The notes below the pieces were generated by a model. That model was given only the letters and a program-made list of their open reading frames with translations, ran no database searches and was not told the DNA's origin. A stretch of DNA of 42,664 nucleotides from an uncultured Spirochaetales bacterium (GTDB taxonomy: Bacteria > Spirochaetota > Spirochaetia > DTKZ01): the NCBI GenBank assembly GCA_937991975.1, contig CALKLC010000120.1, positions 1 to 42,664 on the forward strand, written 5' to 3'. A program made the translations under genes and the position numbers. Of the stretch, positions 4,138 to 20,153 are shown piece after piece; position 1 is the first letter of the stretch; each line of letters opens with the position of its first letter.

Positions 4138-5022
4138 TCACGGAGGGAATATACTGTATGGAAAGCGGGATGGCATGGAACTGCCTGTAGTGAGAACCTG
4201 TGACAAAGCCCCTGCGTAATCTTTTCGCAGGCTCACGATAAAGGGATACTCCTTGATTCTAGGGAATCGCTCAATATTCTGCCCTATAATCCCCATATTT
4301 CTTCGGGTTCCGGGCCCTGATAGAAGTTCCAAAACGATAGATCCCGCTTTTCCTGCCCAGACCACTAATAGATCCACAGGTTCTGCCAATTCCTTTCGAA
4401 GATTCTTTCGTATAGTTTCCTCTGAATCGTACTTAGGAATAAGAACTGTTCGTACTCCAGGGGAAGGTTCTCCGAATCCCAGTTCCCGAAAGAGAGAAAG
4501 ATCCTCCTCACTCAGTATCAATAATTTTTGATCCTTTGGGATGGTCGAGGATCTGTACTGCTCCCAGCGCTTGAGAGCCTCTTTCAGGGCAGGCGCAGGG
4601 TCGAACGTGATTCCCCGCACATTGGGATGAAGGAAAAATCCTTCGGGGGCATCCATACAGAGAAAGGTTACACCTGGGAAACGAATCTCCAACGCTTCCA
4701 GTTCCAGTGCAACATAGGGGCTAACCACTACATACGAGTAGGTGTCTTCTGTCAACAGTTCTTCCAATGCCAGCCGATCCTTTTCACGAAACGCATAGGG
4801 AACCGTCTTGATACGATACCCGGATTCTCGTTCCGTGACAGCCAGTTGGCGGAGAAACTCGTCCCCCAGAATCGGAGAGGTGAGAGAATCCAGCACCCAG
4901 AGCACCTTTGGAGCCGAACAGGATAGAAGAACCATGCAAAGAAGCACCCCCCCTACCCAACGGATGCACCGGTAGATCTTGCGCTGATACAGACTACCCG
5001 GCCACTCTATGGTACGTCTCAA
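4138..5022 (-). CDS. Predicted lipoprotein, periplasmic-binding-protein-like (Med/BMP-like fold guess)
   Basis: Lipobox-like VLLCMVLLSCSAP; alternating beta/alpha pattern (YSYVVVSPYVALELEALEIRFPGVTFLCMDAPEG); TTG start overlaps the TGA of the upstream SDR. Confidence 0.55.
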   Translation of the reverse strand: MRRTIEWPGSLYQRKIYRCIRWVGGVLLCMVLLSCSAPKVLWVLDSLTSPILGDEFLRQLAVTERESGYRIKTVPYAFREKDRLALEELLTEDTYSYVVVSPYVALELEALEIRFPGVTFLCMDAPEGFFLHPNVRGITFDPAPALKEALKRWEQYRSSTIPKDQKLLILSEEDLSLFRELGFGEPSPGVRTVLIPKYDSEETIRKNLRKELAEPVDLLVVWAGKAGSIVLELLSGPGTRRNMGIIGQNIERFPRIKEYPFIVSLRKDYAGALSQVLTTGSSMPSRFPYSIFPP

Positions 5023-5771
5023 TCCCGTAGGGTCCCTCCATTTACCATCATGCTCTCTCCCGTGATGAATTTCGCTCGGGGGCTGGCTAGATAGGAAGCG
5101 GCAAAGGCAACATCCTCTGGGTCTCCCAATCTCTTCAGGATGCTGTTATCGATGAACTTCTGATTCTCCTCTTTAGACACCGCAGTTGCCATGGGAGTGA
5201 CGATCCTTCCTGGGCAGATCGCGTTGGCCGTGATGTTGTCCATTCCAACTTGCTGGGCAAGATTACGGGTAAAGGCAAGGACCCCTCCCTTGGAGGCGGC
5301 GTAATGGCAGGCGGCTACCGTTCCACCATGCTTTCCTGCTTCTGAGCTGATATTGATGATGCGGCCGTACTTCTGTCTGCGCATTCCAGGAAGTACGGCT
5401 TTGCAAAAATAGAACATAGCCCGCAGGTTCACCGCCATCACCAGATCCCACTCCTCTGATGAGATTTCCTCTATCTTGTGTAGCGGATGGATCCCCGCGT
5501 TGTTCACCAGAATCTGAATACTACCAAAAGTATGCTCCACCTCTGCCACAAAAGCGTTCACTTCTCCTTCTTTTGCGATATCCACTACTTTATAAAAAAC
5601 TTTCACCCCTGTTTTCTGCTGGATTTCTTTTGCCGTTTTCTCCAGCTCTTCCTTCTGCACATCGCACAACCCTACATTGGCTCCCAGGGTAGCAAACTCT
5701 AAAGCGATTGCTTTTCCTATCCCTCGGGCAGAACCAGTAACAATAGCACTTTGACCTTTCAACGAATCCAT
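5019..5771 (-). CDS. SDR family oxidoreductase (FabG-like)
   Basis: TGSARGIGKAIA (TGxxxGIG), NNAGIHP, catalytic Y-x3-K (YAASKGG), C-terminal MMVNGGTLRD. Confidence 0.92.
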   Translation of the reverse strand: MDSLKGQSAIVTGSARGIGKAIALEFATLGANVGLCDVQKEELEKTAKEIQQKTGVKVFYKVVDIAKEGEVNAFVAEVEHTFGSIQILVNNAGIHPLHKIEEISSEEWDLVMAVNLRAMFYFCKAVLPGMRRQKYGRIINISSEAGKHGGTVAACHYAASKGGVLAFTRNLAQQVGMDNITANAICPGRIVTPMATAVSKEENQKFIDNSILKRLGDPEDVAFAASYLASPRAKFITGESMMVNGGTLRD

Positions 5772-5795
5772 CGTTTCTTTCTCCTCTCCATTGGA

Positions 5796-6611
5796 TCAAG
5801 ATATCCGATTCAATACAGGAGCGAGAGTTTCCATGGCCGCCTGTACATCTTCGGCAAAACTCCTTTTCAGATTTCCTTCGATGGCCAGTTTTCCGTTGTA
5901 CCCACACGCATCGAGGATTCCTATGATATGCTTGAAATCGAGAGCCCCATAGCCGGGGAAAAATCGATTATTCTCCGATAGATGGAAACTGATGAAATGA
6001 TCCCGGTGAGTGATGATGGCAGCTTCCATGTTGGATTCTTCGATGTTCATGTGCCATGTATCGGGCAGGATATAGGTAGAACCTTTGTTTCTCCCTTCCA
6101 CCAGCGACCAGGTATCATCAAGGCTGTTCCCCAGAGGGGACTCGAACCGATTGATCGCTTCCACCAGGAAGGGTGTCTTCAACCGGGCTGCTTCTTCAGA
6201 TACTTCCTCGATGGATCGTTTCAAAGCCTCCCGATGGGCTTCGGAACTTTCCCCTGAAGTTCCTTTGAGAAATCCCGCAATGATCCCTGCTCCAAAATGT
6301 TTGGCAAAGGCAAGGAACTCCTTGGCCCGCCTAACCGATAGAGTGCGTTTCTTTTCGTCGGTAGAGGAAAGGGACAACCCTTCTGTTTTAGCAGTGAACC
6401 CCGTTGCGAACATGGATAACTCTAAATCGAAATCTTTGAGAAAAGATTTTAAATCTTCAGGGTCTACCGCATCAGGATTCCGAATGTTCAATTCTACCCC
6501 ATCGAATCTGAAACTCTGTAGAACCTTCATCCGTTCGATGAACTCCCTGTCCTTTCGATAATCGTCGGGTAACAGGGTCTGTAACGCAAGATAGTACCGG
6601 TATCTTCCCAT
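5796..6611 (-). CDS. Sugar phosphate isomerase/epimerase family (xylose-isomerase-like TIM barrel)
   Basis: FDGVELNIRNPDAV, FLVEAINRFESPLGNSLDDTWSLVEG, ILPDTWHMNIEESN, FHLSENNRFFPGYGALDFKHIIGIL, AIEGNL. Confidence 0.85.
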   Translation of the reverse strand: MGRYRYYLALQTLLPDDYRKDREFIERMKVLQSFRFDGVELNIRNPDAVDPEDLKSFLKDFDLELSMFATGFTAKTEGLSLSSTDEKKRTLSVRRAKEFLAFAKHFGAGIIAGFLKGTSGESSEAHREALKRSIEEVSEEAARLKTPFLVEAINRFESPLGNSLDDTWSLVEGRNKGSTYILPDTWHMNIEESNMEAAIITHRDHFISFHLSENNRFFPGYGALDFKHIIGILDACGYNGKLAIEGNLKRSFAEDVQAAMETLAPVLNRIS

Positions 6612-6627
6612 CGATTCTGCTCCTTTC

Positions 6628-7704
6628 CTACATTCCTACAATAGGTCGTAAGGTTTCTACTTCTTTCCAGCTGGTCACCATGATGTAGAGGTATAGCCCT
6701 CTAGGGTCCAGAGAGTCCCTCAACTTCCGTAGCTCATCCGGAGCAAAAGAGCCCCGGATCAAAAGGGGTTTCCCCGCTTCCTGCACTTGCTGCAAGTACG
6801 GAATTAGCCAGTCCAGCGGCGGCCCCCCCACATCGTTGTTTATTTCGTAACACCGAATCTCGGGAATCTGCAGCATCCTATCCAGCACGAACATACTGGT
6901 AGCGTGCAAGTGGATGAAACTACAGGAAAATCGGGCTGCCACCCGCTGATCCACCGGTTTCAGGTACTCCTCATAGAGGGTAGGAGATAGAACAGCCACC
7001 CCGTCTTCCTGCATCCGAATGATCGACCCGGGGGCCCAGAGGCTGTACTGGGCATCGAAGTACCCCCCCTGAAAAAGGGGAATCCCTTTCCAGGCTTCTT
7101 CGGTGATCCAGATGAAGAAATCCCCCATCCGTTCCAGTAACCTGTAGGCCCGCTCCCCTTCCAGCATCAGGTCGATTACAGCCTGTTCATGGCCGCGCAA
7201 GTTAATCACATAATCCAAGGGACCTGTGAGGGTTCCATGGGATACGGGGTACCTTCCCGCCGCATGCTTCACCAGCACATCGATGAACTCCATGTACTTC
7301 TGGTACCAGGGAGATTCGCGGTTCCACTCTACCGCCTCCGCTTCCTCCCAGCTAAGGTTCTGTTCTTCCGCCACTACGTTGCCCGGCAACACCCGCATGG
7401 AACTCCCCAGGATCCCCTCCCCCCAGAACACAGCCTGAGAGGGAGACGCCCCCCGAATAATATCATCCTCCATCTGTTCCCCTTCGGAAAGGAGTCTCTC
7501 CTGATCTTCCAGAAACTCCTCGGGGTGAATCATTTCCGGGGTAAGAGGAGCGTCTTTCTTCCAGGACGCACTGGCCCTGAACTCATCCAGGGGAAACCAA
7601 CTCTTGAAAGAAAACCCGACAAGCGGTCGTTTCACGGCTTCCCGTGCCCAAAACTTACGATACCCCTCGATTTTTTGGGGATCATTCCCGAACGCGTAAC
7701 CCAT
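6628..7704 (-). CDS. Uroporphyrinogen decarboxylase-like family protein (function unknown)
   Basis: URO-D-superfamily-like layout: LTGPLDYVINLRG, EDGVAVLSPTLYEEYLKPVDQRVAARF, FIHLHATSMFVLDRMLQIPEIRCYEINND. Confidence 0.6.
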   Translation of the reverse strand: MGYAFGNDPQKIEGYRKFWAREAVKRPLVGFSFKSWFPLDEFRASASWKKDAPLTPEMIHPEEFLEDQERLLSEGEQMEDDIIRGASPSQAVFWGEGILGSSMRVLPGNVVAEEQNLSWEEAEAVEWNRESPWYQKYMEFIDVLVKHAAGRYPVSHGTLTGPLDYVINLRGHEQAVIDLMLEGERAYRLLERMGDFFIWITEEAWKGIPLFQGGYFDAQYSLWAPGSIIRMQEDGVAVLSPTLYEEYLKPVDQRVAARFSCSFIHLHATSMFVLDRMLQIPEIRCYEINNDVGGPPLDWLIPYLQQVQEAGKPLLIRGSFAPDELRKLRDSLDPRGLYLYIMVTSWKEVETLRPIVGM

Positions 7705-7712
7705 TCAACCTC

Positions 7713-8534
7713 CTAGTTCATCTCGAACCCACCATCCACATTCAGCGTCTGCCCTGTAATATAATCCGATTCGGAAGAACAGAGGAACAAGGCCGCGGCC
7801 GCCATATCATCAACCGTTCCGGGTCTCTTCAGGGGGATCCGGGCAATGAACTCTTCGCTCGTTTTCTGGGCATCCACTCCAAAGGCTTTCTGTTTGAGTC
7901 GATTGTTCTCGTCCCACATAGGGGTAAGCACAACACTGGGGGCTATGGCATTTACATTGATGTTATAGGGTGCAAAGGCCAGGGCAGCTGACTGGGTGAT
8001 ACTGATCACTGCAGCTTTACTAGCCGCATAGGCCAGCTGGTACGCACGCCCTCTTCGACCAGAAATGGAGGTGAAATTGACGATCTTACCGTAGGATCTT
8101 TCCGCCTTCCCTGCTCGCTTTACCTCGTCGGGAATCAGCTGGATCATAGCCCTCGCTACAGCCTGGGTAGCGAAGGCTGTTCCCTTCTGGTTGATGTCGA
8201 TCACCCGGTCCCATTCCTCCTCCGTTACATCGAGGAAGTTGTTGCTCTGCACTACACCGGCAGTATTTACGAAGATATGCAATGCCCCAAAGTCCAGCAT
8301 AATTTGATCCACCACCTGTTGAGTCTCCCTGGGTTTGGAAATATCCAATCGGTAGGTTCTTGCCTCTGTCCCATTCTTTTTCAATTGGGCACTCAATTCC
8401 TCAAGAAGGTTTTCCTGAATATCCGCCAAGGCTAATCTTGCCCCCTCGCGGGAGAAGCGAAGGGCAATTCCCCTTCCAATACCCGAGGCCGCCCCTGCAA
8501 TAAAAGCTACTTTACCTTCTAGTTGTCCTTTCAT
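7713..8534 (-). CDS. SDR family oxidoreductase
   Basis: IAGAASGIGRGIALRFSREGARLALADI, VNTAGVVQSNN, YAASKAAVISITQ, GQTLNVDGGFEMN. Confidence 0.92.
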   Translation of the reverse strand: MKGQLEGKVAFIAGAASGIGRGIALRFSREGARLALADIQENLLEELSAQLKKNGTEARTYRLDISKPRETQQVVDQIMLDFGALHIFVNTAGVVQSNNFLDVTEEEWDRVIDINQKGTAFATQAVARAMIQLIPDEVKRAGKAERSYGKIVNFTSISGRRGRAYQLAYAASKAAVISITQSAALAFAPYNINVNAIAPSVVLTPMWDENNRLKQKAFGVDAQKTSEEFIARIPLKRPGTVDDMAAAALFLCSSESDYITGQTLNVDGGFEMN

Positions 8535-8546
8535 AGGTTATCCTCC

Positions 8547-10289
8547 CTATAAGTCATATAAGTCATGCGCTATCTCGAGAAACCAGCGTTTCAGCCGTTC
8601 TGTGTATTCCTTCCTGCATACGGGTGAGACATCGTACAATTTATCCCGAAGGACAAACCGGTTCTGTGGATCCCGCCTCCCAACGGAGACAAAGCAATAG
8701 TAATGGAAGAGTTTCTTCGCCGGATGAGGGGTGGGATCCTTTGCCAGTTCCTCCAGACATTCCTTTGCAAAACTGGATCCTTTCTGGGCCTCTCCTTTTA
8801 CGAAGTTATACACATCCTCCCACCATTCCAGGAATCGTTCCCGCTGCACGTCGTAGAGGGTCTCGGCAAAGATCAACTGAAGCATGGGGGAGATCTTGAA
8901 ATTGATCCTTCCACGGGTGGCTCTCCCAAAGACCTTCCGTGTATCCTTCGATAGATCGTCCCCCGAATGGCAGTCGAGCATCAGGTTGTATAGAGAGGCG
9001 ATGTCAGAAATAACCTTTACCCGATGTTCCAGCCCGGACAGTCCGTCAGGGCAACGGTAATCTGTGCTTTTCTCTACCCCAAAATTCGGTGCCAGGTGGG
9101 TAACGGGCAGCCCCCGTCGTTCGATCTCGATTGCAAGGAAAACCACTTCTTCCGGTCGGGTGATACAATTACAGGTAGAGACTTCTGGGGGATTCTCGTC
9201 GATGGAAAGCTCCAGATCAAAAGGTTGGTTTCCCTTCAAGGATTTCAAATGAGCCGAGAGTTGTTCCAGAGCATCAAGAGCCTTCCAGTACTTTCCCACC
9301 AGTCTTCCGATCTCTTCTTCGGAGAAAGCGTACTTCCTACCGCCAATGGTTCTGGTCCGTTTATGGTAGAGAAGGACGTCTCTCCGTTCCCCTTCGTCGG
9401 GAATCTGCTGCGTTAGGTACTCCCACCCCATACCGCTGGATGAGTCCAAAAGGGCCGAATATCCAAGGATATCGGACACATCAACGGTAAAGAAAGTGTA
9501 ATACCTCGCGGCTCGCATCACCTTCTTGGCCCTTTTCAATCCTTCAGGGCCTCGTTTCACCTGAATGTGATCTGCATCCGCCCCATATTTGGGGAAACTT
9601 GGATCCTTCAGAATGGCAAGGATCCCCGCATGGAGGAGTCCCTCGAAGGTACTTCCCGTGTGTCCTTCAGCAATGGTACCAAAACTGAATAGGTAGTTTT
9701 CATGAGGAGCCTTTCCCTCTTTGAGATCATCCAGCAGGTTCAGTTCTCGGAGGGAATTCTGTATCGCATTCGCCGCAAACATTCCCTCTTCCATCGCCCG
9801 GATGGCTGCCGGCCAGACAAGGACCGTGTGCCGATCCCCTACTCCCAAGCGGGGGGTAGAACCCAACGCCCGAGGAGCCTTTTCAGGATTCAGTTCCATA
9901 AGGTACGTTTCCAGCACTTCCATGTCGGTAGGATAGAGAGAGAGGTTCTGTCCTCCCGGAAGAGGCTTGGTAGCCATGGGGTATCCCAGTTTTGAAGAAC
10001 CTTGCATGGGACCTATTCGCACAAAAAGGTGCTGTCCATCCGGCAAAGAGCCCAGAAACACATCAGCCCCTTGATCAGGTGCATGGGAAGCCGGATACAC
10101 CGTCAGATAGTTTCCCGAAAGGGGAGATTCTTGATTCTTCCCTGCCAGAGCTTGTAAGCGATGCCAGAATCGGTCATCCTCCTGAAACACCAGGGAAATG
10201 GCAGAATCCCGATCCCACGTGGCGGTATCCAGTACTCCAGGATTCCGTGCAGGGTCTATCTCCAGTTTGCCGAACGAGTAAGTCCCCAT
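8547..10289 (-). CDS. Tagaturonate epimerase-like protein (UxaE family candidate)
   Basis: 580 aa; SIDENPPEVSTCNCITRPEEVVFLAIEIERRGLPVTHLAPNFGVEKSTDYR and LMLDCHSGDDLS resemble the metal-binding/HSGSDKFS-type segments of UxaE; genomic context of SDRs, LarA-like and GntR supports sugar-acid metabolism. Confidence 0.6.
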   Translation of the reverse strand: MGTYSFGKLEIDPARNPGVLDTATWDRDSAISLVFQEDDRFWHRLQALAGKNQESPLSGNYLTVYPASHAPDQGADVFLGSLPDGQHLFVRIGPMQGSSKLGYPMATKPLPGGQNLSLYPTDMEVLETYLMELNPEKAPRALGSTPRLGVGDRHTVLVWPAAIRAMEEGMFAANAIQNSLRELNLLDDLKEGKAPHENYLFSFGTIAEGHTGSTFEGLLHAGILAILKDPSFPKYGADADHIQVKRGPEGLKRAKKVMRAARYYTFFTVDVSDILGYSALLDSSSGMGWEYLTQQIPDEGERRDVLLYHKRTRTIGGRKYAFSEEEIGRLVGKYWKALDALEQLSAHLKSLKGNQPFDLELSIDENPPEVSTCNCITRPEEVVFLAIEIERRGLPVTHLAPNFGVEKSTDYRCPDGLSGLEHRVKVISDIASLYNLMLDCHSGDDLSKDTRKVFGRATRGRINFKISPMLQLIFAETLYDVQRERFLEWWEDVYNFVKGEAQKGSSFAKECLEELAKDPTPHPAKKLFHYYCFVSVGRRDPQNRFVLRDKLYDVSPVCRKEYTERLKRWFLEIAHDLYDL

Positions 10290-10301
10290 GGGTATCCCTC
10301 C

Positions 10302-11579
10302 TTAGGGTTCATAGTATGGGATCGTAAGGGGCCCTTCGGGCAACACACATATCTTGATGGCAGGGCCCAGTTCCCGAATTTTTTCCTCCACAAGCTTTTC
10401 GATGGAAGGACAGTATTCCAGATGGCATTTGCGCACCGTCTCTTTCGACAGATGGGTGGTATAAAGATAAATCCGAGCTTTCTTGACCAAAAGAGCAAGA
10501 ATATGCGCCTGCCATTGATCATCCATTCTGAATCCTTCTGAACGGATCCGTGTCAATAACGCATCCGGATCTTTCGCTTCCTGTAAGAGCCGTCCAAAGG
10601 AGCCATGTTCGGGTACCCCATCCCAACACTCAGCTGCCACCACAATCGTTCCCCCTGGTTTGGTAATCTTGGCAGCAGCACTCATCCCCTTCACTGCCTG
10701 GTACAGGTTTAAATCCAGAGGGTATCCTGCGTTGGAGGTAATTACCAGATCATACAGCGTATCGGTTCGTACCATGGAAGTGCTTCGTACAAACTCGGTC
10801 CCCTTCCGGTAGGCATGGATCCAATCCCCGGCAAAGGATGCGGTTATGTGCTTTTCCTTGTTCAAAGTCACGTTTACCAGAAAATTTGGTTTCACAAGGG
10901 AAGCTGCCTCATCGATCTCCTCTCGTAGTGGGTTCCCCTCGAGGATCCCCCAGTTTGCGGCTGGAGAATCGATATTCCGAGCATCATGATTCCGCATCAC
11001 TGTGTCCAGATGGGCAAGGCCAGGCATCACAGCCTTTCCCCCACCGGAGAACCCCGCAAAAAAGTGGGGTTCGATGAATCCTGTAAGGATTTTGAAAGAA
11101 CAGTGGAGAAACTCCCGATGGATCTTCACGATCGTTCCTCTCCGGGTTGTTCCCACCCCCTCGTGCTGATCCACGGCCCGGGCATCGTTCTGCACGATCC
11201 GATAGGTTCGGACGATATCCGCTCCCAGCATGGACTCCAGTTCTTCCCGGGTATTCAACCTGTGAGTTCCGGTAGAATTGAACAGGGTGATCCGATGGGT
11301 GGGAACGCCTGAACGTTCCAGTTCCTGGAGAATGGCTGGAATAAGGATATGGTTGGGAGTAGGTCTCGTGATATCGCTGAACACGATTCCCACCGAATCG
11401 GTGGCTCCCACAAGCTCCCGAAGGGGTTTTGTTCCGATCGGATTTCTCAAAGAACCGATAATCGTCCCATGAGGATCTTTAGCAGCAGACACATAGGAGG
11501 GCTCGATGATTCGAACAGGGAGATCATCCGGTAGCGTAAGGGGTAGCCCCTCTTTCCCATAGGCTAAATGTACTACCAT
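10302..11579 (-). CDS. LarA-family (nickel-pincer) 2-hydroxyacid racemase/epimerase
   Basis: VFSDITRPTPNHILIPAIL, STGTHRLNTREELESMLG, ILTGFIEPHFFAGFSGGGKAVMPGLA, ITSNAGYPLDLNLYQAVKGMSAA. Confidence 0.9.
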   Translation of the reverse strand: MVVHLAYGKEGLPLTLPDDLPVRIIEPSYVSAAKDPHGTIIGSLRNPIGTKPLRELVGATDSVGIVFSDITRPTPNHILIPAILQELERSGVPTHRITLFNSTGTHRLNTREELESMLGADIVRTYRIVQNDARAVDQHEGVGTTRRGTIVKIHREFLHCSFKILTGFIEPHFFAGFSGGGKAVMPGLAHLDTVMRNHDARNIDSPAANWGILEGNPLREEIDEAASLVKPNFLVNVTLNKEKHITASFAGDWIHAYRKGTEFVRSTSMVRTDTLYDLVITSNAGYPLDLNLYQAVKGMSAAAKITKPGGTIVVAAECWDGVPEHGSFGRLLQEAKDPDALLTRIRSEGFRMDDQWQAHILALLVKKARIYLYTTHLSKETVRKCHLEYCPSIEKLVEEKIRELGPAIKICVLPEGPLTIPYYEP

Positions 11580-11604
11580 CTATCTTTCCTTTTTCCTGTC
11601 TGTT

Positions 11605-13326
11605 TCAACCTTCTGCCACACCTTTCATCCGTTCCCGTACCATCTGGCTCATCTCCTGGTACATACCAATGAATTGTGTCAATGTTTCATGAACGGGTTT
11701 CCATGCTGCCACCGCCTCTGCATCTTTCTTATCCAGGGTAAGCACCCTCTCCGGTTTTCCCATCGAACTATTTTCTGGAACCCACCAGGCTTGCCGGAAG
11801 ATCTCGCTCTTCAAGAGGATCTCCACCTCCTTGTCAGGGGTTTTCCCATGGAGGGCATCGATCACGAGGGGTCTTGGATGAACATCGTACGCTCTTCGGA
11901 CGTTGGGGAAAATCGTAATGAGGGGGATCCCCCAGAGTTCCGAAATATCAGGGATCCAATCATCATAGATCCGCAGGGAGGCAATCATAATTTTTACCTT
12001 GTCCGGATCAACTCCCAGCCCTCCTTTTTCCGGGGCGGAATAAAGCCGGTACGCTGCTTTTCGAGCCACCTCCACTCCCGCCCACCGAGCAGCCTCCACC
12101 CCTCCCTCTACCCCTTTTGCCTTCAACTCATCCCGCACAGGGAACGCCAGCCTTCCGTTCATAATAGCAATGTAGGAAACAAGAGCATTCCCTTTCTGTA
12201 ATACTTCGGCAAAGGGGATGGATTGGAACAGACTGAAGGTAAGAGTCACAGTTACCCCGATCCCCTTAGAGGTGAGTTTTTTGGCTGCCTCCAGTCCTGC
12301 CGCTGTGGAAGGCACCTTGATCACCACATTAGGTACCCCTCCCAGCCGTTTCTCCAACTCTCTGTAGATGAAGACTGCCTCCTTCACCATTTTCTCGCTA
12401 TCCAGGTGGGCTTTTGGATTCACCTGCAGACTCACGTACCCCTGTTTTCCCTCACTCCAGAGGAAGATCGGCCGCAGTAACCGACAGTTCCTCTCTACTA
12501 CCGAGGTAGTAACCAATGCATTGATCCGCTCGATTGCCTCGGAAAGACTTTGTTCCGGCCCTTCCAGGATGGATGCAAGTTTTTTCTTTGAATAAGTCGA
12601 ACGAATCACTTCCTCCACCCGCTTGTTCCAGTATACCGGATCTATGTCCCATGCAAGTTTGATTAGAACTGGATTGGTAGTCACGAAGGTCCCGCCAATC
12701 CGCATCATAGAATCGAGAAACTCTGCATAATCGTTCCCGATTTCGGTATGGAGACTCCCCGCCAATGCAGATCTGGCCGCAATGCGAAGGTTCGATTTGT
12801 TATACTCATGGATGAGATTTTCAATATATTCTTGAATCCCTTTGCCCCACAGAGAGTTAACCATCCGGGTGACTTCCTCATCCGCCGCAATTCCCTCTGC
12901 CTTCAATCGGGCACGGGTTGTCTTTTTGATTTCTTCCTCGAATGCAACGGCCTCATCCGGAAAGGCCTCTAAAAGGGATCCGAGAGTCTCTAAGGTTCGT
13001 ACTGTATAGGATTGTATTCCTTCTTCTCCCAGCATAGGCAAGAGTTTCCGCTCTGCAGGGAAAGAACGAAGATCCAATGAGAGGTTCAGGAGGAAGCGGA
13101 GAATGATCGATCGATCGACTTCGGAACTCTTTACGGCTTTCCCCGTAAATTTCTTCTCTAGAAACGCGAACCGTTTCTTGAAGGTATCACTGGTAGAGAA
13201 GTATAGGAGTGCCCCTCGGACAGCCTCCTCATGTCCCTGCACAAGGGAATCCCACAAGTTTTCCAGTGTGGCCTTCTCCCACCTCTTCTTCTCTTCTCGA
13301 ATTCGTTCCTTCAGTTTCAGATTCAT
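11605..13326 (-). CDS. Transaldolase-family protein with ~200-residue N-terminal extension
   Basis: FLDSMMRIGGTFVTTNPVLIKLAWD; VVIKVPSTAAGLEAAKKLTSKGIGVTVTLTFSLFQ (catalytic-Lys region). Start set at 13326 (SD GGAGGAG). Confidence 0.85.
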   Translation of the reverse strand: MNLKLKERIREEKKRWEKATLENLWDSLVQGHEEAVRGALLYFSTSDTFKKRFAFLEKKFTGKAVKSSEVDRSIILRFLLNLSLDLRSFPAERKLLPMLGEEGIQSYTVRTLETLGSLLEAFPDEAVAFEEEIKKTTRARLKAEGIAADEEVTRMVNSLWGKGIQEYIENLIHEYNKSNLRIAARSALAGSLHTEIGNDYAEFLDSMMRIGGTFVTTNPVLIKLAWDIDPVYWNKRVEEVIRSTYSKKKLASILEGPEQSLSEAIERINALVTTSVVERNCRLLRPIFLWSEGKQGYVSLQVNPKAHLDSEKMVKEAVFIYRELEKRLGGVPNVVIKVPSTAAGLEAAKKLTSKGIGVTVTLTFSLFQSIPFAEVLQKGNALVSYIAIMNGRLAFPVRDELKAKGVEGGVEAARWAGVEVARKAAYRLYSAPEKGGLGVDPDKVKIMIASLRIYDDWIPDISELWGIPLITIFPNVRRAYDVHPRPLVIDALHGKTPDKEVEILLKSEIFRQAWWVPENSSMGKPERVLTLDKKDAEAVAAWKPVHETLTQFIGMYQEMSQMVRERMKGVAEG

Positions 13327-13344
13327 AGGTTTCTCCTCCATTCA

Positions 13345-14016
13345 TTACTCATGAATAAACCCTTCCAGCTTCAGTACTGCATCCCGGGAGGCCAGGATAT
13401 GGGCAGACATGACCTGCTCGATTCTTTCCTCATCCTGGGACAGAAAGGCCTGGATGATGGCAATATGTTCCTGATTGGTAGATTCTATCCGTTTCGGAAG
13501 CCTCCCTGCAAGGATACGCATACGCTGGTTCTGGTCCATTACCACCCGGTACATTTCTATTAGATGTTTATTCTGAGTACACTCCACGATGTAATCGTGC
13601 AGATCCCGATCATACTGGAACCAATCTTTGAACGATATAGAACCCATATCCATCGTGGTGAACAGCTTCAGGAATTGTTCCAGGACTCCTCGATCCATCC
13701 TCCGACTGGAAATGCGGGCGATCTTGGGCTCTAAAAGAAGTCGGATCTGGTAGATCTCGTAGATGTCCTGTACAGAAATAGGTGAGACAAAGGTACCTTG
13801 CCTGGGATAGATATCGATAAGATGTTCCCGTTGGAGACGGAGCAAGGCCTCCCGAATGGGGGTTCGAGACGTACCGAACTCCGAAGCCAATGAATCCTCT
13901 GAAACTACCGATCCCGGAAGCATTTCACAGGAAATGATCCGTTCCTTGATTCTTCGGTAGACCTGTTCCTGCAGAGCTTCCTTCTTCATGCTCGAAGTCC
14001 CGATCGGTGTTTTCAT
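13345..14016 (-). CDS. GntR family transcriptional regulator (FCD-type)
   Basis: QVYRRIKERIISCEMLPGSVVSEDSLASEFGTSRTPIREALLRLQREHLIDIYPRQGTFVSPI; FCD-like C-terminus. ATG overlaps the upstream stop (TAATG). Confidence 0.93.
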   Translation of the reverse strand: MKTPIGTSSMKKEALQEQVYRRIKERIISCEMLPGSVVSEDSLASEFGTSRTPIREALLRLQREHLIDIYPRQGTFVSPISVQDIYEIYQIRLLLEPKIARISSRRMDRGVLEQFLKLFTTMDMGSISFKDWFQYDRDLHDYIVECTQNKHLIEMYRVVMDQNQRMRILAGRLPKRIESTNQEHIAIIQAFLSQDEERIEQVMSAHILASRDAVLKLEGFIHE

Positions 14017-15053
14017 TATTCCTTCGGATCCAGCACGATTTTCAATCCGCGTTTTGCTTCGAATAGATCGAAGGCCTTCTTCCATTCTGCCAGGGGAAGG
14101 ATATCGGATACGAGAGGTTTCAACTGTACCTGCCCCTCGGCCACCATATGCAACGCCCGTTCCCAGGAAGTCCATCGGGATCCAAGAGATCCGGTAACCT
14201 TCACCTCTTTATAGCAGATCCGTTCGAAATCTAAGGATATGGGCTTTCCGAATAGTCCAATTTGTGTCAACTGTCCCCGTTTCCTCACAGAAAGAAGGGC
14301 GTCCTGCAGGGCCTTCTCGCTTCCCGAACACTCCAATACAACGTCTACCCCAACGCCCCGCGTGATCTCTTCCACCAATTCCCCCAGACTTTGCTTCGTG
14401 ACATCCACCGTCCACTCTGCACCGAGGGCTTTTGCTTTTTCAAGCCTTTCCGAATCTACAGGAGTACCCGTGACCAGTACGCGGGCTCCATGCGCTTTCG
14501 CTACCTGGAGGGTAGCCAAACCGATGGCTCCCGGCCCCGATACAAGGACTGTATCCCCCGCCTGGATATGGGTAAGTTCCACCACAGCATGCACAATACA
14601 GGCAAGAGGTTCCATCAGAGCGCCTTCAAGGAAGGAAATAGAATCTGGCAGCGGATGGAGGCGAGCTGCAGGAACGATCGTGTAGGGAGCGAAAGCACCG
14701 TTGTACCAGTAGCCGAGAGTCTTACGCTGGTTACAGAGGTTGTAGTACCCTTCCCTGCAATGGATACAGACTCCACAGTATGAGTACGCTGTTTCTGAGA
14801 CCACCCGATCCCCTGGCTTCCAGTGTTCCACACCAAGTCCAACCTCTACGATTGTTCCGCTGAACTCATGTCCCGTGATTACGGGCGGACGCACAGGAAT
14901 GGCAATGTCACTATGGTAGATATGAAGGTCTGAACCGCAGATTCCTGTGTACTGGACTGCGATCTTTACCTCTCCCGGGCCTGGTTTTGGTTCCGGAACT
15001 TCCCGCAGTTCCATATTCCCGGGCCCAGCCGCATACTTCACTAACCCCTTCAT
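14016..15053 (-). CDS. Zinc-dependent medium-chain alcohol/polyol dehydrogenase
   Basis: GICGSDLHIYHSDIAIPVRPPVITGHEFSGTIVEVG; four-Cys structural zinc loop (CGVCIHCREGYYNLC); VLVSGPGAIGLATLQVAKAHGARVLVTG. Confidence 0.93.
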   Translation of the reverse strand: MKGLVKYAAGPGNMELREVPEPKPGPGEVKIAVQYTGICGSDLHIYHSDIAIPVRPPVITGHEFSGTIVEVGLGVEHWKPGDRVVSETAYSYCGVCIHCREGYYNLCNQRKTLGYWYNGAFAPYTIVPAARLHPLPDSISFLEGALMEPLACIVHAVVELTHIQAGDTVLVSGPGAIGLATLQVAKAHGARVLVTGTPVDSERLEKAKALGAEWTVDVTKQSLGELVEEITRGVGVDVVLECSGSEKALQDALLSVRKRGQLTQIGLFGKPISLDFERICYKEVKVTGSLGSRWTSWERALHMVAEGQVQLKPLVSDILPLAEWKKAFDLFEAKRGLKIVLDPKE

Positions 15054-16009
15054 TACAACCCTCCTTTCTTTTTCAGAACCTCCTCCGCAGCCTTCACGAT
15101 ATGCTGGGAAGTCAACCCATACTTTTCTAGAAGAGCCTGATAATCCCCTGACTCGGCAAAGGTGTCCCGTACTCCCACGAACTCGATGGGTACTGGATAA
15201 AGACGTCCTACTGCCTCGGCTGCCGCACCTCCCAGGCCTCCGTGGATAGAATGCTCTTCTGCCACCACAATTCCGCCCGTTTCTTTCGCACATCTCTCGA
15301 GGAGTTCCGTGTCCAGGGGTTTGATGGTATGGATGTTTACCACTCTCGCGGACACTCCCTGTGCCTCGAGTATCTGAGCAGCCTCCATTGCTCGGTGTAC
15401 CATGTAGCCAGTTGCTACGAGGGTAATGTCTTTTCCGCTTCGAAGGAGTTTCCCTTTCCCCAGGACAAAAGGCTGGCTATCATTTTCTGGAATGTCCGGG
15501 CACTCGTTTCTGTGGATCCTAATGTATACCGGGCCTTTATACTGCACCGCCGCTTCTGTAGCCGCCTTGACTTCAGCCCCATCAGCCGGGCAAATGACCA
15601 GCATGTTGGGAAGGGCACGCATAAAAGCGATATCCAGGATGGAATGATGACTCGCTCCATCGTAGGAGTCGGAAAGCCCTGCATAGGTTCCTGCCAGTTT
15701 CACATTCAGTTTCGTATACGCTATAAGACTACGAATGGGATCTCCACATCGGAGGACCATGAAACAGGCAAAGGTGTTCACGAAGGGAATCAGCCCTGTG
15801 GTTGAAATACCCGCTGCCATGGCTGCCATATTCATTTCTGCAATCCCCACATTGAAGAAACGCTCAGGGAACGCTTCCCCAAACAGGATGGTCCTTGTGG
15901 AGGTTGCCACATCCGCATCGAATACAACGATATGGGGGTTGGTCTTTCCCAGTTCCACTAGAGTTTCACCATACACTTGCCTCATGGCCTTCCCTGTTGC
16001 TCCTGCCAT
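15053..16009 (-). CDS. Transketolase C-terminal subunit (split transketolase)
   Basis: AMRQVYGETLVELGKTNPHIVVFDADVATST...FFNVGIAEMNMAAMAAGISTTGLIPFVNTFACF. Confidence 0.95.
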   Translation of the reverse strand: MAGATGKAMRQVYGETLVELGKTNPHIVVFDADVATSTRTILFGEAFPERFFNVGIAEMNMAAMAAGISTTGLIPFVNTFACFMVLRCGDPIRSLIAYTKLNVKLAGTYAGLSDSYDGASHHSILDIAFMRALPNMLVICPADGAEVKAATEAAVQYKGPVYIRIHRNECPDIPENDSQPFVLGKGKLLRSGKDITLVATGYMVHRAMEAAQILEAQGVSARVVNIHTIKPLDTELLERCAKETGGIVVAEEHSIHGGLGGAAAEAVGRLYPVPIEFVGVRDTFAESGDYQALLEKYGLTSQHIVKAAEEVLKKKGGL

Positions 16010-16842
16010 TACCTTCCCCCTTCCAGTTCCTGAATCGCAGCTTCGTATTCCGCCTTGCTGATGGGTTTTCCATGCCACGTATGTTTCCCTTCCATGAAAG
16101 AAACCCCCTTCCCTTTTACTGTATGGGCAATAATGAGGGTGGGTTTCCCTTTCACCTGATGAGCCTCCTGAATAGCATCGTAAATTTCTTCCACCTTATG
16201 ACCGTTTACCTCGAAGGTATTCCAGCCAAAGGAACTCCACTTTCCTTTTACATCCCCCAAAGGCATGATTTGATCCACTGTCCCATCCAGTTGCACCCCA
16301 TTCTTGTCGAGAATCGCAACTACATTATCCACACCATACTTAGCCCCGGCCATGGCCGCTTCCCATACGATCCCTTCCTGAATCTCCCCATCCCCTAAGA
16401 GAACATACGTATAGAAAGGTTTCCTTTGGAGTCTGGCTCCAAGACCCATCCCTAAAGCGGCAGAAAGCCCCAGACCCAGAGGGCCTGTGGAGAGTTCTAC
16501 CCCCGGGGTCTTCAGCGCGCAGGGATGACCCTGCAGCCTGCTGTTGAGTTGCCTCAGGGTTTTAAGCTCTTCCTTTGGAAAGAACCCCTTTTCAGCCAGA
16601 GCGATATAGAGCATAGGAGCTGCGTGTCCTTTGGCCAGGACGAACCTGTCCCTCTCTTCCCAGTAAGGATTCTTCGGATCCACCTTCATTACTTCAAAAT
16701 ATAGGGTGGTTATGATCTCGGTGGCGGATAAAGACCCTCCTGGATGTCCTGTTTGCACAGAATAAAGAGTGTCGAGGAGAGTTCTACGGAACTGTTTGCA
16801 GAGCCCCTCCAGGACGGCTTTCCGTTCCTTGGATAATCCCAT
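16009..16842 (-). CDS. Transketolase N-terminal subunit (split transketolase)
   Basis: TGHPGGSLSATEIITTLYFEVM; RDRFVLAKGHAAPMLYIALAE; GDGEIQEGIVWEAAMAGAKYGVDNVVAILDKNGVQLDG (ThDP motif). Confidence 0.95.
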   Translation of the reverse strand: MGLSKERKAVLEGLCKQFRRTLLDTLYSVQTGHPGGSLSATEIITTLYFEVMKVDPKNPYWEERDRFVLAKGHAAPMLYIALAEKGFFPKEELKTLRQLNSRLQGHPCALKTPGVELSTGPLGLGLSAALGMGLGARLQRKPFYTYVLLGDGEIQEGIVWEAAMAGAKYGVDNVVAILDKNGVQLDGTVDQIMPLGDVKGKWSSFGWNTFEVNGHKVEEIYDAIQEAHQVKGKPTLIIAHTVKGKGVSFMEGKHTWHGKPISKAEYEAAIQELEGGR

Positions 16843-16881: not shown

Positions 16882-16962
16882 AGATGCTCGAAACAATGAT
16901 GATTACTCAATGGGGCCCGAACATCTTGTATAAAATAGATATATCAGATTCTATCGAAGCAT

Positions 16963-18246
16963 CTACCCCCTGTCAAGTAAGACACGCGGTGAAAAGATAG
17001 GCTTCCCGCTGCCAGGGTTTTGCACAGCGAGATTATGCATGGAAAGAGCCTTCAGGGCCGATTCCACATCCTTCAGGCCGTTCCCTGTAAGTAGTACTAC
17101 TTCTGGACCTTGAGGGTCCTTCCTCGACCCCCGAAGGTCCTTTCCTGCAACCAGAAGATCCTTGAGATACCCTGCAAAGGCTGTGGCGCCAGCAGGTTCA
17201 GAGAAGAGGCCTGTCCAGGAAGCGAGATTCTTCTGTGCTTCCAGGATCTCGCTGTCCGAAACAATGATTATACGCCCGCCGTAAGCTTTTAATTTTTGGA
17301 CTGCAAGATATCCGTTTCGGGGGATTTCTACAGAGATGGAATCTGCCACTGTATGGGCCCCCATCCCTCTGTCGAAAAGCCCCCTCTCTAAGGCCCGCGC
17401 AATTGCCGATGAACCCTCCGCCTGCACCCCAATGACTTCTGGTATTTCCTCTATTAATCCCAATCTTAAAAGATCCTCAAACCCGCGATAGACACCAGCA
17501 AGGATCACTCCATCCCCCACAGAAAGGTATACCCGTTTCGGCGCCCTTCCCAGGTCGCGAAAAATCTCCAGCGCAACGGTTTTCTTCCCTTCGATCGTAA
17601 GGGGTTGCTGGGCAGTATTCCGAGAAAGAACCTCTTTGTGGGACCTGCAGTACTCTAAGGATGCATCATACGCATCATCGTAGGTACCCTCTACCAGGGT
17701 CACTTCTGCTCCATACAGGAGGGACTGTACCCGTTTGGCCAGAGGAGCAGATGCAGGCATAAAGATCCGGACCGATAATCCTGCCGCGGCTCCCACCCCT
17801 GCCATGGAGGAAGCTGCATTACCCGTGGATGCTACCGCAATGGCTGAACGTCCATGCTTTTTTGCAAAGGCAGCTACTAGAAACGAAGCCCGGTCCTTCA
17901 ATGACCCTGTAGGGTTCGCTCCATCGTCCTTCAGGTATACCTCCTCGATTCCCGTCTGTTTCCACAACCTCGCAGGTTTCCAGAGGGGGGTATTCCCTAC
18001 CGGAATAGAAGGAAAGAACTCTCGTTCAACAGGAAGGAGGTCGAACACATCCCACTTTCCTGCCTTAGAATCGATCCATTCCCGCAGGAGAGGGTAGTTC
18101 CAATCAACCTCTAAGACTCCACGTAGAGGCTCTTTCGGATCCTGGGCAGCATGGCAGGCGGTACACACAAGCATCTCAGGGGAAGGATCATACTCCTTTC
18201 CACAGAGGCTGCACCGGTAGTGGAAGAGGGGCTCTTTCCTACCCAT
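16963..18246 (-). CDS. Threonine synthase-like PLP enzyme (fold type II)
   Basis: N-terminal CSLCGKEYDPSPEMLVCTACH zinc-ribbon-like; LKDDGANPTGSLKDRASFLVAAFAKKHGRSAIAVASTGNAASSMAGVGAAAGL. Confidence 0.85.
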   Translation of the reverse strand: MGRKEPLFHYRCSLCGKEYDPSPEMLVCTACHAAQDPKEPLRGVLEVDWNYPLLREWIDSKAGKWDVFDLLPVEREFFPSIPVGNTPLWKPARLWKQTGIEEVYLKDDGANPTGSLKDRASFLVAAFAKKHGRSAIAVASTGNAASSMAGVGAAAGLSVRIFMPASAPLAKRVQSLLYGAEVTLVEGTYDDAYDASLEYCRSHKEVLSRNTAQQPLTIEGKKTVALEIFRDLGRAPKRVYLSVGDGVILAGVYRGFEDLLRLGLIEEIPEVIGVQAEGSSAIARALERGLFDRGMGAHTVADSISVEIPRNGYLAVQKLKAYGGRIIIVSDSEILEAQKNLASWTGLFSEPAGATAFAGYLKDLLVAGKDLRGSRKDPQGPEVVLLTGNGLKDVESALKALSMHNLAVQNPGSGKPIFSPRVLLDRG

Positions 18247-19459
18247 GGGTTTGACCCAGCCTGTGGGATTCGTCTAGCACATAAGGAAGGTACGCGTAGA
18301 AAGCACTGGCTATTTCCAGATCCTTCACACGGGTGACTTCGTTGGGGGCATGGGCCTGCGCCTCGTCCCCCGGCCCGAAACCGATGGTGGGAATCCGATA
18401 CCTTCCACACACAGCGGTTCCGTTGGTGGAAAACGTCCACTTATCCACCACAGGCTCTGTACCAAAAAGCCCCTTGTACGCGTGCCTACCGGCTTGCACA
18501 AAAGGATGATCCGACGGAAGTTTCCAGGTGGGGAAGTAAAGTTCCTGGCCATAGGGAGTCTTTTTCCATCCAGGTTTGTCATAGTATGGAACGACTACCT
18601 CTTCAGCCAGACTTCCAAGGGCATCCTTCACCTGCTGCACTGCCAGTTCCATCGTTTCTCCCCAGGTAAGTCTGCGATCGATATAGAGGGAAGCCACATC
18701 GGGTACTGCACATTGGGAAGGTCCAAATGCTTTCAGCTGGGATACTACGATCGTTCCCTTCCCTAGAAACCGATCCTCATCGGGTTGCAATTCTTCATTC
18801 AACCCTTCGAGGGCCAGGGCAGCCCTGGCTGCTTTGTAAGCTGCATTTTCTCCCCGTTCCGGTGCCGAACCATGGGCAGAGACTCCTTTGATATGAACCT
18901 CCATCTCCATCCGGCCCCGGTGCCCCCGATACAACCGACAACTGGTAGGCTCGGTACTGATAAAGTAATCGGGAATAAACTGTTCTTCCTCGATCAGGTA
19001 CTTCCAGCACATTCCATCGCAATCTTCCTCAAGGACGGTAAAGGTAAAATACACGGAGTACTTCCCCCGGTAATCAAGATCTTTCAATATCCGACCCGCA
19101 GTCAGCATGGCCGCTGCTCCCCCCTTCTGGTCCGAGGCTCCCCGGCCGTAAACCAACCCATCCCGGATGGCCCCCGAAAAGGGATCGTCCTTCCATTGAC
19201 TGCGGTCTCCCACCCCAACAGTATCGATATGGGCGTCGATGACGAGTTTCTTTTGCCCTGACCCTATGCGAGCAACTAGACTCCCTAACCCGTCGATCCG
19301 CACCTCATCGAACTCGAGAGTTCTACATATGTGCTCCAGTTCCCGAATAACCCCTTCCTCTGCCCCTGAAAAGGAGGGGATACGGATGATTCGGGAAAGG
19401 TTCTCTGCTGTCATGGATGCATACGTATTTGCCAGTTTTTTAATTCTAACCGGATCCAT
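18239..19459 (-). CDS. M20 peptidase-family hydrolase, YgeY-like
   Basis: LVIDAHIDTVGVGDRSQWKDDPFSGAIRDGLVYGRGASDQKGGAAAML; VLEEDCDGMCWKYLIEE; GFGPGDEAQAHAPNEVTRV. Confidence 0.85.
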   Translation of the reverse strand: MDPVRIKKLANTYASMTAENLSRIIRIPSFSGAEEGVIRELEHICRTLEFDEVRIDGLGSLVARIGSGQKKLVIDAHIDTVGVGDRSQWKDDPFSGAIRDGLVYGRGASDQKGGAAAMLTAGRILKDLDYRGKYSVYFTFTVLEEDCDGMCWKYLIEEEQFIPDYFISTEPTSCRLYRGHRGRMEMEVHIKGVSAHGSAPERGENAAYKAARAALALEGLNEELQPDEDRFLGKGTIVVSQLKAFGPSQCAVPDVASLYIDRRLTWGETMELAVQQVKDALGSLAEEVVVPYYDKPGWKKTPYGQELYFPTWKLPSDHPFVQAGRHAYKGLFGTEPVVDKWTFSTNGTAVCGRYRIPTIGFGPGDEAQAHAPNEVTRVKDLEIASAFYAYLPYVLDESHRLGQTHG

Positions 19460-19461
19460 CT

Positions 19462-20028
19462 TTATACTCCTGCATTAGGTATAGAATATTGATCTGCCCA
19501 CCGGGCTAGAACGTACAGATAATCGGACATGCGATTCAAATACCGCTGACACGGAGCCAGTTCCTGCAACCCCCTGCTTCGAATAAGAGCTACGAGAGAT
19601 CGTTCCGCTCTGCGGCAGATGGTTCTACAGATATCCAGTCGGGCAGATAGGGCACAGCCTCCCGGCAATACGAACCGTTTGGGAACTTCAATCGATTCCA
19701 GCACTCTCTTTTCTACGGTTTCCAGAACTGTAATATCCTGATCCGTCAAAAGATCGAGGGCATGGAAGCGGGGGTCGGTTGGAGGAGTGGCAACCTCGGC
19801 CCCGATCCGAAAGAGGTTCAACTGAAGGGATTCCAGTTCGTCCTTGAAGAAGAGTCCCTTCCCTTCTGCTTTTACCCATCCGAGAAAAGAGTTCAGTTCA
19901 TCCAGGTCCCCCAGGACTTGGAATACAAGATCGTCTTTGGGCCTGCGTTCTCCATTGTATAGGGTGGACAATCCCTCATCTCCTCCCCGCGTGGTAATTT
20001 GATCGAAGGGAATTTTTCTACGTATCAT
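19462..20028 (-). CDS. ATP:cob(I)alamin adenosyltransferase (PduO-type)
   Basis: TRGGDEGLSTLYNGERRPKDDLVFQVLGDLDELNSFLGWVKA; VLPGGCALSARLDICRTICRRAERSLVAL. Confidence 0.92.
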   Translation of the reverse strand: MIRRKIPFDQITTRGGDEGLSTLYNGERRPKDDLVFQVLGDLDELNSFLGWVKAEGKGLFFKDELESLQLNLFRIGAEVATPPTDPRFHALDLLTDQDITVLETVEKRVLESIEVPKRFVLPGGCALSARLDICRTICRRAERSLVALIRSRGLQELAPCQRYLNRMSDYLYVLARWADQYSIPNAGV

Positions 20029-20153
20029 ATCGAACCTTCATCCCACAGTACTCTAAAACAGTGAAAAAAGCAATTTCCTTCCTCTTTACTCAGCTTCCCA
20101 TTCCATATTACAAATGAAGAATTAAATCCTGAGGAAAAAATGAGGGTAGTTGT

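Follow-up and report, generated by a model that had tools for sequence, protein, structure and literature searches.

The window analyzed here is a contig of 42,664 nucleotides (CALKLC010000120.1) from the draft genome, 79% complete, of an uncultured spirochaete. Its minus strand carries 12 intact, co-directional open reading frames (ORFs) between positions 16842 and 4138. In 5′-to-3′ order, they encode the two halves of a split transketolase (TK), namely, TKN and TKC; a zinc-dependent alcohol dehydrogenase (Zn-ADH); a GntR regulator; a transaldolase (TAL) with a long N-terminal extension; LarA; a UxaE-like protein; a short-chain dehydrogenase/reductase (SDR1); a UroD-like protein; an IolO-like protein; a second SDR (SDR2); and a lipoprotein (Table 1). 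Stop and start codons overlap as TAATG at the TKN/TKC, TKC/ADH, and ADH/GntR junctions and as TTGA between SDR2 and the lipoprotein gene, while the remaining junctions are gaps of 8 to 25 bp. A first-pass annotation of this DNA had described a packed minus-strand operon, and both its coordinates and its family calls proved correct, although the UroD label rests on a sub-threshold match.

Table 1. Features of the operon and its upstream region
Feature	Position	Strand	Evidence
Sigma-70-like promoter of the operon, TTGACA-17-TAGAAT	16948..16976	-	11/12 consensus bases, just upstream of gene 1
Operator-like imperfect palindrome, CTGATATATCTATTTTATACAAGATG	16922..16947	-	Between promoter and gene 1
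Split transketolase N-terminal (thiamine diphosphate-binding) subunit, TKN	16009..16842	-	PF00456, 208 bits
Split transketolase C-terminal subunit, TKC	15053..16009	-	PF02779/PF02780; head-group motif RSFYR (H461 to Y)
Zn-dependent medium-chain dehydrogenase (threonine dehydrogenase/IolM-like)	14016..15053	-	Below cut-off in NCBIfam; tdh scores highest (262 bits), IolM 224 bits
GntR/FCD (FadR-type) regulator	13345..14016	-	PF00392 and PF07729, both over cut-off
N-extended transaldolase, 573 aa	11605..13326	-	PF00923; TAL_FSA 107 bits over residues 220-491
LarA-type nickel-pincer 2-hydroxyacid racemase/epimerase	10302..11579	-	NF033504, 483 bits (cut-off 460)
UxaE-like protein, 580 aa	8547..10289	-	PF16257, 86 bits (gathering threshold 27.1), residues 211-467 (257/580)
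SDR1 (iditol/gluconate dehydrogenase-like)	7713..8534	-	Pfam/NCBIfam
UroD-superfamily-like protein	6628..7704	-	PF01208, E 0.0018, below cut-off
IolO-like/ketose 3-epimerase-like TIM barrel	5796..6611	-	NF041099, 169 bits (below cut-off of 300)
SDR2 (FabG-like)	5019..5771	-	Pfam/NCBIfam
Lipoprotein, translationally coupled to SDR2	4138..5022	-	No Pfam/NCBIfam family

Gene order and sequence are well conserved among close relatives. G298 (98% complete) and G299 (97%), the contig of the latter stopping after the IolO-like gene, share the order of the window, with identities of ~82-97% for every product except the lipoprotein (65%). This lipoprotein is the least conserved member (65% and 42% identity within the genus); the UroD-like protein is ~91% conserved in L031 and L032, the loci of the two best genomes of the genus. 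In the sister genus (G301), a gene for the large permease of a tripartite ATP-independent periplasmic (TRAP) transporter stands directly in front of TKN-TKC-GntR-TAL, and TAL-LarA-UxaE-UroD lies on another contig. The Zn-ADH belongs to the core of the module, being 60-62% identical in the modules of distant relatives across families. SDR2 has counterparts of 68% identity in the modules of L069 and L122, and SDR1 orthologs lie beside UxaE-like genes in L038, L071-L075, and L084.

A profile search with the UxaE-like protein covered 398 genomes of the class and matched 24; the match in G343 is a true UxaE, leaving 23 genomes with a UxaE-like protein. The protein also occurs outside the class, in a single genome (G039) whose own class is represented by 8 genomes only and therefore offers no independent replicate. 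Plasmid searches returned ordinary transaldolases and no UxaE-like match. The N-extended TAL is present in 14 of the 398 genomes, all of which also have a UxaE-like protein (Fisher p ~1e-19 by genome and ~6e-9 by genus, uncorrected for relatedness and slightly conservative since the counts included G343). In 13 of these genomes, the TAL and UxaE-like genes are direct neighbors or have just LarA between them; in the 14th (G478), the contig ends at TAL. The idea put forward in the first-pass annotation thus gains comparative support. Elsewhere, short TALs (343-404 aa) lie beside the UxaE-like gene in G335 and G039 and, with one GntR gene in between, in G307 (loci L038, L043, and L081), and an aldolase of the fructose-6-phosphate aldolase (FSA) type (~225 aa) takes this place in G314 and G446 (L078 and L079). 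Altogether, 19 of the 24 UxaE-like loci adjoin a TAL or FSA gene, of three kinds in all; among the five that do not, four have a transketolase departing from the phosphate motif described below.

The assignment of the epimerase as UxaE-like stands at the level of the family and not of the clade. Besides the PF16257 domain, the protein shares with true UxaE the putative catalytic or metal-binding residues D238, D240, H241, D270, E360, D364, E365, K407, H441, and K465, and its profile and predicted fold match both UxaE and tagatose 4-epimerase, in a model whose mean pLDDT is only 70. Retro-aldol chemistry like that of UxaE (T. maritima and Cohnella) would be expected. In contrast to UxaE, it is 580 rather than ~420-520 aa long, lies with TAL/TK genes instead of UxaC/UxuB, and at ~25% identity falls in a separate clade (support of 100/99, long branches being present); one genome of the genus encodes both proteins. 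We presume that it is a ketouronate C4 (ketose numbering) epimerase. UxaE is proposed to split its substrate in a retro-aldol reaction, giving dihydroxyacetone enediolate and tartronate semialdehyde, and then to rejoin the two (PMC11194214); the bond broken is therefore the one that TAL would cut.

True UxaE belongs to a canonical hexuronate cluster found elsewhere in the genus (L117, 565-10923, and L118), together with a DeoR regulator, a mannonate-oxidoreductase-like SDR, UxaC, and a LarA-type hexonate epimerase (NF052594, 662 bits), the last on the opposite strand with a 6-phosphogluconate-dehydrogenase-like gene. The genus also encodes a 2-keto-3-deoxygluconate (KDG) kinase, KdgK, and a 2-keto-3-deoxy-6-phosphogluconate (KDPG) aldolase at other sites. 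Hence, the operon does not represent the usual hexuronate route, and its substrates are probably hexonates or other ketohexonates, not galacturonate or glucuronate themselves. Homology to UxaE, and SDRs that could be fructuronate reductases, would suit the canonical isomerase (Ashwell) pathway with accessory pentose-phosphate genes. Yet UxuA, UxaA, KdgK, and Eda are not in the operon, while UxaC, a UxuB-type SDR, true UxaE, and the hexonate epimerase occupy the other cluster. We rejected the canonical pathway for the operon because the genus has it elsewhere; already largely refuted, it is the least credible of the explanations considered here.

TKN keeps the residues equivalent to H26, H66, H100, D155, E160, N185, and H261 of TktA. 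At the head-group positions (TktA R358, S385, F437, H461, and R520), the combination RSFHR orients the phosphate, and RAFDR is the motif of sulfo-TKs (PMC11659671). The operon TK reads RSFYR. This motif occurs in TKs of the window genus and of G301, G300, G522, G433, and G412 but never in the other TK paralogs of the genus, which read RSFHR, RAFDR, RSFSR, RGFCQ, RAFHR, RVFNS, or RSFHK. A housekeeping role is therefore unlikely for the operon TK; for that, the genus has a separate full-length TK with RSFHR. The operon TK carries neither the phosphosugar motif nor that of the sulfo-TK SqwGH, and no sulfoquinovose (SQ) genes were recognized around it. An engineered E. coli TktA (R358I/H461S/R520Q) makes tartaric semialdehyde from 5-keto-D-gluconate (PMC12016104). 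There, as in the operon TK, the phosphate-binding position H461 is substituted, and the substrate is a ketohexonate, as we propose here; the change in the operon TK, however, is natural and limited to H461Y.

Split transketolases are abundant in these spirochaetes. Five genomes (G000, G298, G299, G300, and G301; e.g., L140-L157 and L158-L163) each contain 9-11 transketolase-N-like stretches, mostly split TKs, with the motifs RSFHR, RAFDR, RSFSR, RGFCQ, RAFHR, RVFNS, and RSFYR, and several lie beside TRAP or ABC transporter genes. They apparently form a battery of dedicated ketose-cleaving transketolases. At L161 (G298:C7, 243-6783), a TRAP transporter is encoded together with a split TK (RVFNS) and a transaldolase-like protein of 346 aa, which suggests another module of the TK/TAL type for a different substrate.

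A described system that resembles the operon is the bifurcated sulfo-TK/sulfo-TAL pathway of Faecalicatena (PMC11659671). Both combine, in one operon, a split TK, transaldolase(s), an isomerase, and aldehyde reductases, and in both, as we infer for the operon, a C6 ketose that lacks a phosphate but is anionic at C6 is cut and its C2 and C3 units pass to glyceraldehyde 3-phosphate (G3P). Unlike that pathway, the operon has RSFYR in place of RAFDR, no sulfonate genes, and UxaE-like, IolO-like, and LarA proteins instead of the SQ and sulfoerythrulose (SEu) isomerases, and its head group is probably a carboxylate. The operon would follow a comparable strategy but lacks the features that define the sulfo pathway.

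Another head group, such as a sulfonate in a divergent sulfoglycolysis module, would also account for the pairing of split TK and TAL, and LarA could accept 2-hydroxy acids such as sulfolactate. In L043 (11302-14488), moreover, a glycyl-radical enzyme and its activase directly follow TAL and the UxaE-like gene; the enzyme is related to sulfopropanediol dehydratase but scores far below every characterized equivalog of its kind (424 versus a cut-off of 1000 for that dehydratase). Genes for an SQ isomerase, a sulfoquinovosidase, or sulfonate metabolism were not recognized, and homologs of tagaturonate reductase are found instead. We dropped sulfoglycolysis for the operon because neither the TK motif nor the gene content fits, and we regard a sulfonate substrate as very unlikely.

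In the AlphaFold2 model and its fold matches in the PDB, the window TAL consists of a helical N-domain of ~190 aa, which E. coli TalB and FsaA lack, and a TAL barrel. Aligned with TalB, it keeps the Schiff-base lysine (K132), D17, N35, T156, R181, S226, and R228 and shows three replacements: E96 by Gln, as in FsaA, F178 by Met, and S176 by Ala (Ala or Val in the comparison with TalB and FsaA). FSAs are marked by Gln59, Tyr131, and a length of ~220 aa; the window TAL has the Gln, a Met for the Tyr, and 573 aa, placing it outside that group. Gln and Met occupy the E96 and F178 positions in all UxaE-linked TALs of the TalB type, and the UxaE-linked FSAs have Gln at the former position as well. 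Both FSA-type partners replace the phosphate-binding Arg of TalB and FsaA with Pro, within GPL (L078, 6457-7134; L079, in a frame from ~2852). The E96Q and E96Q/F178Y changes shift TalB towards aldolase activity, and both variants are represented in the PDB. A Gln at this position, as in FSA aldolases, means that the operon TAL may also release free dihydroxyacetone. The same residue is found in one TAL candidate of Faecalicatena expressed during growth on sulfoquinovose (PMC11659671).

As UxaE works by retro-aldol cleavage, the long UxaE-like clade may itself release dihydroxyacetone and tartronate semialdehyde as a class II aldolase, leaving TAL to handle only the dihydroxyacetone unit or to act as a second aldolase. 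The published mechanism (PMC11194214) and the retained putative catalytic residues agree with this, as do the Gln at E96 in every linked TAL and FSA and the TalB variants just mentioned. Its closest solved relatives, however, are epimerases; a separate TAL next to such an aldolase would be redundant; and recruitment of a dedicated aldolase or transaldolase has occurred repeatedly, as the FSA-type partners demonstrate. We consider this alternative improbable.

Several neighbors of the UxaE-like gene point to acids as substrates. LarA acts on 2-hydroxy acids. The operon member has intact catalytic His/Lys motifs, and among solved structures it is closest to a lactate racemase of broad substrate range (9eia/9eid); glycerate has been named as a possible undiscovered substrate of the family (PMC7583248). 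UxaB-type proteins are found in the modules of 7 relatives, and the 3 that were scored reach 433-530 bits (NCBIfam tagaturonate reductase cut-off, 359). TRAP permeases occur in most modules, and in L036 (G330), one protein has 2-hydroxy-3-oxopropionate (tartronate semialdehyde) reductase as its best family, below cut-off. A glycerate 2-kinase is encoded apart from the operon (G000:C42). Zn-ADH is a candidate hexonate 5-dehydrogenase, and SDR2 is a candidate acid-aldehyde reductase or hexonate dehydrogenase.

The best solved relative of the IolO-like protein is T. maritima TM_0416, which is IolO, and tagatose/psicose 3-epimerases match it too. As in the Thermotoga inositol pathway, which leads through IolM and IolO to D-tagaturonate, an IolO-like epimerase and an IolM-like Zn-ADH accompany a UxaE-family protein. 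The operon proteins fall below the IolO and IolM cut-offs, however, IolG, IolN, and IolK are absent, and TAL/TK replaces the reductase/dehydratase/kinase route. The matches to tagatose/psicose 3-epimerases, together with tagatose 4-epimerase (9kcs) as the best profile match of the UxaE-like protein, could indicate a module for neutral sugars, in which the two proteins would be the 3- and 4-epimerases of an unphosphorylated rare ketose and TAL/TK would either use this ketose as a substrate or belong to the ordinary pentose phosphate pathway. LarA, the UxaB-type tagaturonate reductases, the TRAP transporters, and the tartronate-semialdehyde-reductase-like protein argue instead for acids, and a separate housekeeping TK with RSFHR exists, which makes such a module an unlikely explanation.

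Given these results, we propose, with a probability of roughly 60%, that the operon is a catabolic module for hexonates that enter as 5-ketohexonates (that is, ketohexuronates) and are cleaved by a dedicated TAL and split TK rather than by way of a dehydratase, kinase, and KDPG aldolase. Gene content, conservation, linkage, and active-site residues are observed; from them we derive the probable substrates, direction, products, and individual reactions. Linkage of the UxaE-like protein to three kinds of TAL or aldolase and the altered phosphate-head-group residues of TK fit ketouronate cleavage better than pentose-phosphate work. The same two observations favor the direct cleavage of a ketouronate by TAL/TK suggested by the first-pass annotation, although galacturonate and glucuronate as such are improbable substrates. 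That annotation was also aware of no account of exactly this gene set, and the open-access literature yielded no natural hexuronate or hexonate pathway based on TAL or TK, nor one in which these enzymes act with fructuronate, tagaturonate, or tartronate semialdehyde.

In the proposed route, Zn-ADH and/or an SDR would oxidize a hexonate (L-galactonate, L-gluconate, or D-altronate, for example) to a 5-ketohexonate, and the IolO-like (ketose C3) and UxaE-like (ketose C4) proteins would set the stereocenters read by TAL/TK, leading to the D-fructuronate configuration. TAL would then transfer a dihydroxyacetone unit to G3P, giving fructose 6-phosphate and tartronate semialdehyde, and TK would transfer a C2 unit to G3P, giving xylulose 5-phosphate and a C4 acid aldehyde. 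The SDRs would reduce the acid aldehydes; by Fischer projection, the C3 product from D-fructuronate would be L-glycerate. LarA could then supply the unlinked glycerate 2-kinase with D-glycerate made from it. Alternatively, LarA may invert ketose C5, in which case the three epimerases would cover all three stereocenters, and the IolO-like protein, by analogy with SqwI of the sulfo-TK pathway, may isomerize the C4 aldehyde so that TK can act a second time. The Luteolibacter pathway for L-glucose and L-galactose likewise converts a hexonate to a 5-ketohexonate, with IolO-type C4 epimerization to D-tagaturonate (PMC12632266); there, however, reduction and dehydration of tagaturonate lead on to cleavage at the level of KDPG, and no TAL/TK takes part. 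More tentatively, and at somewhat less than even odds, we suggest that a bifurcated urono-transaldolase/urono-transketolase pathway, with a carboxylate where the sulfo-TAL/sulfo-TK pathway has a sulfonate, is spread through uncultured Spirochaetota, drawing ketohexuronates from many hexonates via C3, C4, and C5 epimerases (IolO-like, UxaE-like, and LarA) and dispensing with the dehydratase, KDG kinase, and KDPG aldolase.

Several observations weigh against this proposal. The genus has a canonical hexuronate route (UxaC/UxuB/UxaE) of its own, and at the UxaE-like locus of G454, the 37 kb read contain no TAL or TK gene. The first-pass annotation saw no kinase, dehydratase, or KDG aldolase; this is true of the window operon, which also lacks a transporter gene, but not of some distant relatives. 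In families f80 and f82, an FGGY kinase, a DapA-like aldolase, a KdgK-like kinase, or an enolase-superfamily sugar-acid dehydratase lies near the module, so other routes may share its substrates there. R181, S226, and R228, kept in the window TAL, are compatible with phosphorylated ligands. We had considered E96Q/F178M as a signature specific for ketouronate TALs and dropped it since the pair also occurs in a further TAL clade of the class for which no UxaE linkage is known, and is hence not diagnostic. LarC (PF01969), which inserts nickel in the synthesis of the LarA cofactor, was not found in the 5 genomes of family f1, two of them 97-98% complete, in a search that matched 6 of 14 control genomes, although at least 2 LarA-family proteins above their NCBIfam cut-offs are encoded. 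Finally, the genomes compared are draft assemblies.

Upstream of TKN, the best promoter-like match for the operon is a consensus match only; the shuffled region yields ~11 matches, mostly weaker. The -35 and -10 elements of the promoter-like match are kept in L031 and L032. The palindrome that follows is kept in three other members of the genus (L031, L032, and L153), where the flanks have diverged. Its position would suit binding by a repressor such as the GntR protein of the operon, which makes it a plausible operator. A second sigma-70 promoter-like match (4131-4103; 12/12 consensus bases) lies 3′ of the lipoprotein gene; it serves the next gene and precedes two FlaA-like genes that come after the operon. 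On the other side (16963-21347), inspection by eye suggests threonine-synthase/diaminopropionate-lyase-like, M20 peptidase, and divergent carbamoyltransferase-like genes, which would resemble the ygeWXY-like set of E. coli.

If the proposal is correct, the isomerase, oxidative, and fungal reductive routes would be joined by a further way to degrade hexonates and hexuronates, and cleavage of unphosphorylated anionic ketoses by TAL/TK would be a strategy of general use, not one confined to sulfosugars. The proposal would provide natural enzymes for the cleavage of ketouronates to tartronate and tartaric semialdehydes and would make transketolase head-group motifs usable for predicting substrate. 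For these spirochaetes, it would explain the N-extended transaldolase family and the clade of UxaE homologs that accompanies it.

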